Source: an uncultured Sphingomonadaceae bacterium (lineage in GTDB: Bacteria; Pseudomonadota; Alphaproteobacteria; Sphingomonadales; Sphingomonadaceae). From it: a stretch of 64,000 bases of DNA. Positions 3,157-38,519 of the stretch are shown here, in pieces. A program made the position numbers and the translations under genes. Numbering within the stretch: position 1 is the stretch's first letter; the number at the start of each line of letters is the position of its first letter. Location of the stretch: positions 186,001 to 250,000 of the forward strand of contig CAIQHF010000012.1 of assembly GCA_903871605.1 (NCBI GenBank), given 5' to 3'. Under the pieces are notes generated by a model. The model was given only the letters and a program-made list of their open reading frames with translations. It was not told the origin of the DNA and did not search any database.

Positions 3157-3160
<4 letters not shown>

Positions 3161-3644
3161 CGCTGACCCCTCGAGACGAGGCACGACGCCTAGACTCCCC
3201 TCCCCTTCAGGGGAGGGGCCGGGGGTGGGGCGTCTCCGCAAACGCCATCGCCGGCTTGCACGGGCATGCGCGGACCATGCGCAGCAATCCGACCGAGCCG
3301 GAGAAGCGCTTGTGGGCGCACCTCTCGCGCTCGCAACTTGGCGGCTTCAAGTTTCGGCGGCAGGCGACGATCGGTCGTGTTATCGCGGACTTCCTCTGCC
3401 CCGCAACCGGGCTGATCATTGAAGTCGATGGCGATACGCATATCGATGCGGAAGCGGACGCGCGCCGCGATGCGATGCTGGAATCGCTTGGCTATCGCGT
3501 AGTCCGCGTCAGCAACACCGATGTCATGCGCAACATCGAAGGCGTGTTGCAGCATCTGCTCACCACGCTTCAAGCCATGCCCCTGCGGCGGGCGCCCCAC
3601 CCCAACCCCTCCCCTGAAGGGGAGGGGCTTTCCGGACCCGTATC

Positions 3645-3651
<7 letters not shown>
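3157..3651 (+). CDS. DUF559 (VSR/REase-like fold) nuclease-family protein
   Basis: Endonuclease-domain protein of the DUF559 family, related to very-short-patch and PD-(D/E)XK nucleases. The conserved core is about residues 41-135: [43 protein letters not shown] and [11 protein letters not shown]. The D/E-x-D and E-V-D pattern fits the nuclease fold. The first ~30 and last ~20 residues are translated palindromic repeat, so the ancestral start may be the internal ATG at 3277, which has no clear ribosome site; the start here is coupled to sufB (ATGA). It sits between sufB and sufC, an unusual place, and its tail overlaps the sufC start. Activity and target are unknown. Confidence 0.8.
3197..3627. 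mobile_element. Inverted-repeat-bounded cassette carrying the DUF559 gene
   Basis: A unit of about 431 bp with near-identical ~35-bp inverted ends: left end 3197-3231 (starts CCCCTCCCCTTCAGGGGAGG) and right end 3593-3627 (its reverse complement with 1-2 differences). Each end is itself a palindrome. The interior codes for the DUF559 core. The same type of paired ends, with no gene between them, lies inside leuS. No clear target-site duplication was recognised, so calling it mobile is inference from structure. Confidence 0.5.
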
Positions 3652-4397
<746 letters not shown>

Positions 4398-4423
4398 GCG
4401 ATTTCCCGACCTTTCGCAAACAT

Positions 4424-4495
4424 CCGTTCGCACTGAGCGCAGTCGAAGTGCAGCCGCCGTACCGCGTGGCCTTCGACTGCGCTCAGGCCGAACGG
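4424..4495. repeat. Palindromic repeat between sufC and sufD
   Basis: Inverted repeat with ~25-bp arms, CCGTTCGCACTGAGCGCAGT.. (4424-4448) and its complement (4471-4495), separated by 22 bases. It fills the sufC-sufD gap and would fold into a strong hairpin in the operon mRNA. It is the same family as the copies at 7449 and 7921. Confidence 0.85.
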
Positions 4496-4509
4496 GAGTT
4501 GGAAGCCCG

Positions 4510-5612: not shown

Positions 5613-5728
5613 CCCCCTCTCCCTGTGGGAGAGGGTCGGGGTGAGGGGATCCGCCCTTCAGGGCTTGGGATCCCCTCACCCTCCCACGCCTTCGGCGCGG
5701 GCCCCTCCCTCTCCCGCCGGGAGAGGGG
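5613..5728. repeat. Compound palindromic repeat at the sufD-sufS junction
   Basis: About 116 bp made of two facing palindromes. The left one reads CCCTCTCCCTGTGGGAGAGGG and continues to GGGGATCC; the right one is the inverse, ending CTCTCCCGCCGGGAGAGGGG. The overall arrangement matches the leuS and DUF559 elements, but the end sequence is a variant (CCCTCTCCC rather than CCCCTCCC). It stays open in the sufS frame and its last GGAGAGGGG lies 4-5 bases before the sufS ATG, so it seems to supply the Shine-Dalgarno sequence. Confidence 0.75.
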
Positions 5729-35918: not shown

Positions 35919-38519
35919 ATGGAACCGGATCGCCGCTTCAACCCGCTCGCCGCCGACGGCCGCTGGCAACAGGCGTGGGACGCGTGCCAGGCGTTCCGCG
36001 CCGACGACGCCAGCGCCAAGCCCAAGGCCTATGTGCTCGAGATGTTCCCCTATCCGTCGGGGCGCATCCATATGGGCCATGTCCGCAACTATGCGATGGG
36101 CGACGTGCTCGCGCGCTACAAGCGGATGACCGGCCACGAGGTGCTCCACCCGATGGGGTGGGACGCCTTCGGCATGCCCGCCGAAAATGCCGCGATGGAG
36201 AAGAAGGTGCATCCCGGCACCTGGACGCGCGCCAATATCGAGACGATGAAGGCGCAGCTCAAGCGGCTCGGCTTCGCGCTCGACTGGAGCCGCGAACTAG
36301 CGACCTGCGAGCCCGATTATTACGGGCACGAGCAGGCGCTGTTCCTCGACTTGATGGAAGCCGGGCTCGCCTACCGCAAGGAAAGCGACGTCAACTGGGA
36401 TCCGGTCGACATGACCGTGCTCGCCAACGAGCAGGTGATCGACGGGCGCGGCTGGCGCTCGGGCGCGCTGGTCGAGCGGCGCAAGCTGTCGCAATGGTTC
36501 CTCAAGATCACCGACTTCGCCGAGGATCTGCTCGACGGACTGGAAACGCTCGGCGACTGGCCCGACAAGGTCAAGCTGATGCAGGCGAACTGGATCGGAC
36601 GCTCGAAGGGGCTGCGGTTTTCGTTCGCGCTGGAAACTCCCCTCCCTGAAAGGGAGGGGCCGGGGGTGGGTTCGCCTGTGGCGGGCGTCGCTTCCGATAG
36701 AGACGAACCCACCCCTACCCCCTCCCTTTCAGGGAGGGGAATAGACACGATCGACGTCTATTCCACCCGCCCCGACACGATCTTCGGCGCGAGCTTCGTC
36801 GCGATCGCCGCGGATCATCCGCTCGCGCTCGCGCTCGCCCAGACCAACCCCGCGCTCGCCGCCTTCGCCGACGAGTGCCGCCACACCGGCACCGCCACCG
36901 CCGAGCTCGAGACCGCCGAGAAGAAGGGCTTCGATACCGGGCTGAACGCCGTCCACCCCTTCGATCCGAGCTGGAAGCTGCCCGTCTTCGTCGCCAATTT
37001 CGTGCTGATGGGCTATGGCACGGGCGCGGTGATGGGCGTGCCCGCGCATGACCAGCGCGATCTCGACTTCGCGCGCAAATATATGCTGCCGGTGCCGCGC
37101 GTCGTTGCCGCCGACGGCGAGGCGGACAAGCCGATCCACGACGAGGCCTATACCGGCCCCGGACGCTTGGTGAACTCGCGCTTCCTCGATGGCATGACCG
37201 TCGACGAGGCCAAGGCGGCGGTGATCGCGCGCGCCGAGGCCGGGGGTTGGGGCCAGGGCACCACGGTCTGGCGGCTGCGCGACTGGGGCGTCTCACGCCA
37301 GCGCTATTGGGGCACGCCGATCCCGATCATCCATTGCGCGACCTGCGGCCCCGTTGCGGTGCCGCGCGACCAGCTGCCCGTCGTGCTGCCCGAGGACGTC
37401 AGCTTCGACAAACCCGGCAATCCGCTCGACCATCATCCGACATGGAAGCATGTCGCATGTCCGACCTGCGGCGGCGCCGCGCGGCGCGAAACCGATACGT
37501 TCGACACCTTCGTCAATTCGTCCTGGTATTTCCTGCGCTTCGCCAGCCAGCCCGCGGACAGGGCGTTCGACCCGAAGGTCGTCGCGCAGTGGCTCCCCGT
37601 CGGCCAATATATCGGCGGCGTCGAGCATGCGATCCTCCACCTGCTCTACGCGCGCTTCTGGACGCGCGCGCTGCAGCGCGTCGGCAAGATCGGTTTCGCC
37701 GAGCCCTTCGCCGGACTCTTCACGCAGGGCATGGTCACGCACGAGACCTATCAGGCGCCCGACGGCCGCTGGCTGTCGCCCGAGGAAATCCGGGACGGCG
37801 TCGTGATCGGGACGGACGAGCCGGTGACCATCGGCCGCATCGAGAAGATGTCGAAGTCGAAGAAGAACACGGTCGATCCGACCGCGATCATCGACCAATA
37901 TGGCGCCGACGCCGCGCGCTGGTTCATGCTCTCCGACAGCCCGCCCGAGCGCGATCTCGAATGGTCCGAGGCGGGAATCGAGGGCGCGTGGCGCTTCGTC
38001 CAGCGCGTCTGGCGGCTGGCGAGCGATCGCGCGCCTGCAGAGGGGCGCGACATCGCGATCGACCGCCGGCTGCACAAGACGATCGCCGGCATCGCCACCG
38101 ACATCGAGGCATTGTCGTTCAACAAGGCGGTCGCCAAGCTGTTCGAGCTGGTCGGTGCGCTCGAGAAGGCGGCGCCGAGCGCCTCGCGCGCCGAGGCGAT
38201 CGACGGTCTGCTGCTGCTGGTCGCGCCGATGATCCCGCATGTCGCCGAGGAAGGCTGGCAGCTGCGCGGTCATGACGGCCTGATCGCGCTCGCCGCCTGG
38301 CCTGCGGTTGATCCCGCGCTGCTGATCGACGACGAGGTGACGATCGCGATCCAGGTCAACGGCAAGCTGCGCGACACGCTGACGGCACCCAAGGGCGCCG
38401 ACAGGTCGGTACTCGAGGCAATGGCGCGCGGATCGGACAAGATCGTCGCCTTCCTCGAGGGGCGCGAGCCCAAGAAGGTGATCGTCGTGCCCGACCGACT
38501 CGTGAATCTCGTCGCATGA
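35919..38519 (+). CDS. leuS: Leucyl-tRNA synthetase with repeat-derived insert
   Basis: Charges tRNA-Leu. It has 866 residues from [16 protein letters not shown]. Class I motifs HIGH ([13 protein letters not shown]) and KMSKS ([14 protein letters not shown]) are intact, as are the zinc-site cysteines (CATCGPV, CPTCGGA). At about residues 240-274, between SFALE and [16 protein letters not shown], lies a ~35-residue Pro/Gly/Glu-rich stretch encoded by a palindromic element. It sits just before the threonine-rich motif of the editing (CP1) domain. The frame is kept, so the enzyme is probably active. The gene overlaps lptE by ATGA. Confidence 0.96.
36639..36739. mobile_element. 101-bp inverted-repeat element inserted in frame in leuS
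   Basis: 36-bp inverted ends, CCCCTCCCTGAAAGGGAGGG.. (36639-36674) and its near-perfect complement (36704-36739), around a 29-base centre. The ends closely resemble those of the DUF559 cassette at 3197-3627, but there is no gene between them, as in a miniature (non-autonomous) element. The reading frame through it is open. No clear target duplication. Confidence 0.65.

Follow-up and report, generated by a model that had tools for sequence, protein, structure and literature searches.

DUF559 (Vsr-like) nuclease genes recur in bacteria between two inverted ends that carry an intrastrand triplex motif. The motif itself, known as TM or PIT, has been described before; what is added here is its pairing with a DUF559 gene as that gene's own ends. 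We read the gene and its two predicted triplex-forming ends as one selfish element, in which the nuclease would recognize the ends, repair would copy the element, and the dispersed TM pairs found elsewhere would be its gene-less derivatives. We give this reading a probability of about 0.55. Four sets of observations bear on it, namely the bracketing of the gene, mirror covariation within the ends, co-occurrence of gene and repeats, and insertion polymorphism.

The cassette that serves as the reference lies between sufB and sufC in a stretch of 64,000 nt from an uncultured Sphingomonadaceae bacterium (hereafter ‘the window’). Gene names in this source genome (suf, leuS, fabI, aroC, and car) were read from translations rather than from database annotation. 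At positions 3197-3627, a DUF559 gene is flanked by two inverted ends, as the preliminary description of this DNA had proposed. The profile match (111.4 bits, E = 2.6e-32, against a cut-off of 20.6) places the product in DUF559 (PF04480), and the inverted arms, at 3197-3240 and 3584-3627, are 44 nt long with a complementarity of 80%. Of the conserved D, ExDG, and H of the family, the E, D, G, and H of the ExDG..H motif are invariant in alignments of 24 and 39 sequences. The same description had taken the ends for palindromic repeats of ~35 bp, which was right about the palindrome and wrong about its extent: each end is made up of a palindrome of 21-22 nt, followed by a short linker and an inward-facing third G tract of 9 nt. 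It had also seen that the cassette splits sufB from sufC, and the junctions are tight, with the first ATG of the reading frame overlapping the sufB stop (ATGA) and its stop overlapping the sufC ATG at 3645. The palindrome pattern of these ends, hereafter type A, has two matches in the window at up to three mismatches vs. none in 100 shuffles. The features of the cassette are as follows:

3157-3651, plus strand: open reading frame of 164 amino acids containing the DUF559 nuclease; the frame crosses both ends, and the start codon is inferred
3197-3218, plus strand: left end hairpin, CCCCTCCCC-TTCA-GGGGAGGGG (arm comparison, pattern and hairpin scans)
3222-3230, plus strand: left end third tract, GGGGTGGGG, mirror of the purine arm (9/9 triads)
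3265-3570, plus strand: DUF559 (PF04480) domain (profile match, alignments)
3595-3603, minus strand: right end third tract, GGGGTGGGG on that strand (triad scoring)
3606-3627, minus strand: right end hairpin (arm comparison, pattern and hairpin scans)

Paired ends with no gene between them had been noticed earlier in leuS (36639-36739) and at the sufD-sufS junction. A hairpin scan recovers both, the latter at 5615-5727:

5615-5727, no strand assigned: gene-less pair at sufD-sufS, hairpins 5615-5635 and 5707-5727; the left end is simple and the right end has a hairpin linker
36639-36739, no strand assigned: gene-less pair, an in-frame insert in leuS, hairpins 36639-36659 and 36719-36739

Hairpins with G/A arms of at least seven pairs occur in only three places in the window scan, i.e., the sufB-sufC cassette, sufD-sufS, and leuS. 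The palindrome of the leuS pair is the same as that of a cassette of the same genome (locus L003), and positions 5615-5648 are identical at 33/34 nt to E. coli TM no. 20. Each of the five simple ends in the window gives 9/9 triads in its best register; the sixth end (5727, minus strand), whose linker is itself a hairpin, was judged by eye. A second inverted repeat family (CTGCGCTCAG and CGAACGG) lies at 4419-4500, between sufC and sufD. Two relatives have repeats like it at sufB-sufC, and a third has them in the same loop of leuS (L113, L114, and L167), so the two repeat families seem to use common insertion hot spots.

In its general layout, an end opens with a hairpin whose 5' arm is pyrimidine and whose 3' arm is purine; a linker of 2-3 nt or a second hairpin follows, and then a G-rich tract facing the gene. 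For the asymmetric arm types whose linker is short (26 in all), the third tract mirrors the purine arm in 18, copies it directly in two, and ties in six; counted by arm type and not by independent event, the mirror score is 1.006 against a null of 0.784 (sd 0.039), and none of 5000 shuffles of tails among arm types reached it. A plain direct repeat of the purine arm was rejected, as the direct score is not raised in the short-linker arm types (p = 0.58). Ends with a hairpin linker (18 arm types, again not independent events), scored at the best position within 55-60 nt, have a mirror score of 1.117 vs. a null of 0.901 (p printed as 0.0000 of 2000). Tallied by end, the mirror is better in 38, the direct copy in 12, and 30 tie; the direct score, too, lies slightly above its null (p = 0.0065). 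An initial and simpler tally of 214 distinct asymmetric ends had the mirror better in 112, the direct copy in 35, and a tie in 67; the arm-type tests were run because many of its ‘direct’ rows seem to stem from arms that were set wrongly or from hairpin linkers.

In the antiparallel purine triplex code, G is placed on GC pairs and A or T on AT pairs. Across 125 distinct ends, the third-tract base opposite A agrees with this code, being A in 96 cases, T in 81, G in nine, and C in none. All five simple ends in the window have the composition that defines a TM/PIT, with a C arm, a G arm, and a third strand reading G-GC, A-AT, and T-AT. The TM_ECO consensus, with a second loop of 2-3 nt allowed, occurs within 250 bp of the gene at 26/97 and 19/75 loci, and the window cassette is another variant. 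Judged by their sequence, the cassette ends are the known intrastrand triplex (TM/PIT) motif, which is more than a palindrome, and they are predicted to fold. A G-quadruplex was considered as the common feature and thought unlikely: arms like GGGGGAAGG with the third tract GGATGGGGG, quoted as examples and not as a count, lack four G3 runs. Triplex folding in solution is reported for TM_ECO single strands; in the text available for that study, Holder et al. describe double-stranded TM as giving a duplex, not a triplex, with no footprint in vivo (PMC4666352).

Bracketing was scored as inverted repetition around the gene, with a threshold of 36. The source genome has five DUF559 genes, all five with palindromes of differing types on both sides by eye; four pass the threshold, and the fifth (L001) scores 25. 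A scan of 147 genomes of the bacterial order yielded 197 DUF559 matches, of which 97 loci were scored, namely the top match from each of 30 genomes, the five own loci, and 62 further, mostly strong ones; some of the matches listed, several of them at contig ends, were left out. In this sample, 79/97 loci score at least 36 vs. 0/1283 shifted placements of the same shape in the same loci (control maximum 34), leaving 18/97 below the threshold. For named genomes, the best 80 loci were taken and 77 could be scored; one (L239) was dropped as an N-run artefact, and another (L193) duplicates a locus of the order sample (L007). Here 61/76 loci pass vs. 2/986 controls (control maximum 68), and 15/76 fall below. 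Under the stricter requirement of a simple inward-facing TM on each side, 44/97 and 29/75 loci still qualify, against 1/924 of the control positions. Titles among the best 80 named loci include Alpha-, Beta-, Gamma-, and Deltaproteobacteria, Helicobacter sp., Gastranaerophilales, Dehalococcoidia, and Planctomycetes, host labels that are uncertain since many are metagenome-assembled genomes (MAGs). The presence of a recurrent nuclease-plus-triplex-end unit in several phyla is well supported.

A plasmid collection gave nine loci from 44 records, and two of the nine pass the threshold, from S. meliloti (score 208) and Deinococcus (41). The former (L323, pSymB) has its DUF559 gene between TM motifs within a 114-nt inverted repeat, where the scan finds two TM hairpins to the left and a single one to the right. 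On cyanobacterial plasmids (L321, L322, and L324), DUF559 genes lie beside DUF1156 or PglX methyltransferase genes, and TM ends are weak or absent; these genes perhaps represent another role of the family. In N. gonorrhoeae (L319), TM-like hairpins follow the DUF559 gene at intervals of 281 nt, three of them in the stretch read. The phage records searched gave three matches.

Nuclease and ends also go together. The class of the ends follows the nuclease tree, with 28 changes vs. 63.5 when shuffled and none of 200 shuffles as low, in a tree built on few columns for 123 rows and with near copies adding to the signal. Of the ten genus genomes, three contain 14, 13, and six type-A palindromes, respectively, and each of these three has a type-A cassette; the other seven contain zero; the zeros are partly circular because a cassette would itself count, so the claim is limited to there being no genus genome with gene-less type-A ends alone. 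Across the order, one repeat type reaches at least three copies in 29/72 genomes with DUF559 vs. 0/75 without (Fisher 2.7e-11), a count that contains the cassettes' own ends and in which genomes are not independent, being related. When two own ends are deducted for each DUF559 gene, an excess of at least three remains in 15/72 vs. 0/75 (p = 9.8e-6), and when four are deducted, in 11/72 vs. 0/75 (p = 2.6e-4). For an excess of at least one, the link is weak, with 16/72 vs. 7/75 (p = 0.04), or 11/72 vs. 7/75 with four ends subtracted (p = 0.32). Fewer than three copies of the one counted repeat type are present in 43/72 genomes with DUF559, one or two matches occur in 7/75 genomes without, and one fragmented assembly (G152) has gene-less copies with no DUF559 found.

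The preliminary description had asked whether the ends might occur independently of any DUF559 gene; the type-A counts in the genus and the co-occurrence across the order speak against this. Its picture of an autonomous-looking unit with gene-less derivatives agrees with the bracketing by eye of the five own genes and with gene-less type-A ends found only alongside a type-A cassette (3/10 genus genomes). As a whole, that description is partly supported, having missed the third tract, the wide spread of the unit, the TM/PIT link, and E. coli ycjD.

Insertion is polymorphic within the genus, with filled sites and, in relatives, empty ones at sufB-sufC, leuS, and fabI-aroC. The sufB-sufC junction is readable in six genus members, own genome included, of which two have the cassette and four do not; four others were unread. 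The gene-less copy in leuS is present, in frame, in the source genome only; seven relatives are without it, one has an unrelated repeat there, and one is unreadable. At fabI-aroC, three of the ten genus genomes are filled, six have a junction of 8-25 nt, and one has a different insert. No clear target duplication was found at leuS or fabI-aroC. Copy number in the genus ranges from 0 to 12 per genome, at scattered sites.

Compared between the source genome and the relative nearest to it, the sufB-sufC nuclease gives a dN/dS of 0.174 at a dS of 0.51, by which measure this copy is under purifying selection. The ends of the same cassette are identical at 45/45 and 64/64 sites, vs. 27/36 in the adjoining flank. 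For the fabI-aroC cassette, dN/dS is 1.05, which is uninformative on selection because it counts only two synonymous and six nonsynonymous changes. A swapped nuclease inside conserved ends was considered for fabI-aroC in one genome (G154) and is not claimed.

In E. coli, ycjD is an annotated DUF559 gene, matched in 3365/5426 complete genomes. Two ycjD loci from the plasmid collection (L298 and L299, 2501-2806) have TMs 3' of the gene and none 5'; the gene-adjacent TM is intact and gene-facing in one and degraded in the other. One Klebsiella copy of DUF559 likewise has TMs on the 3' side only, the intact one facing away from the gene. In nine E. coli genomes lacking ycjD, efflux-pump and regulator genes lie upstream of fabI, the arrangement described for eefRABCD in PMC12817139. 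Such ycjD-less genomes still give extra match places, probably TMs, which suggests that old TM copies outlive ycjD or have another source. DUF559 adjoins fabI both in the source genome (fabI-aroC, named from translation) and in E. coli (sapF-ycjD-fabI), which may be chance.

The reading that we prefer can be laid out as a series of steps. DUF559, which is related both to Vsr and to the EDxHD homing endonucleases, would most likely recognize the folded ends, i.e., the hairpin with its reverse-Hoogsteen third strand, when replication or transcription leaves these single-stranded. It would nick or break the DNA there, and host repair would then copy the element, or just the pair of ends, to junctions between genes and to coding loops that tolerate an insert, so that the dispersed TM pairs would be gene-less derivatives. 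Recognition and cleavage by DUF559, and the copying by repair, are steps that we infer. Hydrolytic nucleases of this kind are not known to rejoin ends, and a homing-like route is proposed for that reason; purifying selection on one copy and the conservation of the ends fit such a route. On balance, the odds slightly favor the nuclease as the driver of the TM repeats.

The TM pairs may instead have spread by other means (another enzyme, replication slippage, or template switching), the nuclease gene being a passenger captured between two of them. Gene-less pairs do exceed cassettes in the source genome, TMs are present where no DUF559 was detected (G152, 7/75 genomes of the order, and ycjD-less E. 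coli), the copies in E. coli and Klebsiella are flanked by TMs on a single side, and the cassettes' own ends account for part of the co-occurrence. However, capture does not readily predict that the class of the ends tracks the nuclease tree, that gene-less type-A ends are found solely alongside a type-A cassette, or that none of 75 genomes without DUF559 has three or more copies, and we consider it rather unlikely. Chance deserves next to no credence. Most sampled hosts are presumably GC-rich, and GC-rich genomes could yield such palindromes near any gene, but the controls already refute this: none of the 1283 shifted placements passes, the reversed pattern has no match in the own genome, and similar ends occur at loci of 35-38% GC (e.g., L267, L203, and L205).

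A different possibility is that DUF559 is a host nuclease for Vsr-type repair or quality control, acting on TM structures or T-G mismatches, and that the ends are regulatory hairpins or insulators rather than mobility signals. This is consistent with the purifying selection on the sufB-sufC copy, with the detection of Vsr by a YcjD profile (PMC1189080), and with the Caulobacter DUF559 protein VsrA, which is needed for a DNA-damage response, is read as mismatch repair, and lends nuclease activity support of a genetic kind (PMC12907096). Against it stand the inverted bracketing, the sharing of the same ends by gene-less derivatives, the scattered sites with 0-12 copies per genome in one genus, and earlier work cited by Holder that found no promoter or terminator activity of TMs (PMC4666352, available text); on this evidence, a host role of that kind is improbable. 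Mobilization of the ends in trans by a RAYT, as REPINs, with DUF559 incidental, would agree with the inverted palindrome pairs of ~100 nt, which is the layout of a REPIN. It was nevertheless rejected as very improbable: PF01797 (RAYT) has no match in the source genome and no significant association with repeat copies in 147 genomes (Fisher p 0.07-0.20), and the 17 genomes with PF01797 and without DUF559 have 0 copies.

Returning to the selfish element, a nuclease gene whose own ends are a motif of this kind, with an end class that tracks the nuclease, is a concrete candidate for the source of the TM repeats, and ycjD makes that candidate testable in laboratory E. coli. Since the same pairing of gene and ends recurs in many distant bacteria, DUF559 genes may be what drives a widespread family of bacterial repeats that has lacked an explanation. 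A bolder proposal, which we advance tentatively and at somewhat under even odds, is that DUF559 and TM repeats make up a new class of mobile element whose enzyme recognizes a DNA triple helix folded at its ends, and that much of the bacterial TM/PIT repertoire descends from it in gene-less form, the TMs of E. coli K-12, which has ycjD, among them. If true, DUF559, a family whose Pfam name marks its function as unknown, would gain a job and would be unusual as a protein matched to a DNA triplex.

Full-text searches, with subscription literature mostly outside them, gave among the papers listed no title or abstract opening that links DUF559 with palindromic or triplex repeats. Among known systems, TM_ECO/PIT repeats share with the present ends the hairpin with a mirrored G tract and the purine-motif code, and inverted pairs also occur. 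They were reported at 3610 copies in 262 proteobacterial genomes and linked with genome instability, their source not being known (PMC4666352). As far as the available text of Holder et al. (2015) goes, no mobility genes lie near E. coli TMs, and the word endonuclease is absent from the main text (PMC4666352). The present elements differ in enclosing a nuclease gene and in having an end class that tracks the nuclease tree.

REPIN/RAYT systems (REPtrons) are alike in placing an enzyme gene between palindromic repeats, in having gene-less inverted dimers, and in inserting at gene junctions (PMC3733652, available text). The RAYT/REP analogy drawn in the preliminary description is limited to the layout; the enzyme here is DUF559 (Vsr-like) and not an HUH tyrosine transposase, for which the PF01797 search of the source genome gave zero matches, and the ends are triplex motifs without the GTAG tag at the hairpin foot, where linkers read by eye are mostly TT, CC, TC, CT, or TTA. 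The CGTC REPs of Alphaproteobacteria also form inverted dimers, are mostly alphaproteobacterial, and have no known transposase (PMC3733652). Membership in this group was rejected, as the present ends have no CGTC tag and a different stem; the third tract is, in the available text, not part of the published description of CGTC REPs. Compared with an insertion sequence, the cassette contains no transposase, and the leuS and fabI-aroC sites have no clear duplication.

The remaining likeness is that of the enzyme. A DUF559 profile (A1) matches 3R3P, a ‘mobile intron protein’, at E = 1.7e-4, a sequence relation to a homing endonuclease that we take to be I-Bth0305I, and the solved structure closest to the DUF559 profile is 3HRL. 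The EDxHD family of homing endonucleases has been described (PMC3943268), and by published profile comparison YcjD is related to Vsr (PMC1189080). Unlike the intronic homing endonucleases, the present gene is free-standing among suf genes and carries its own inverted ends.
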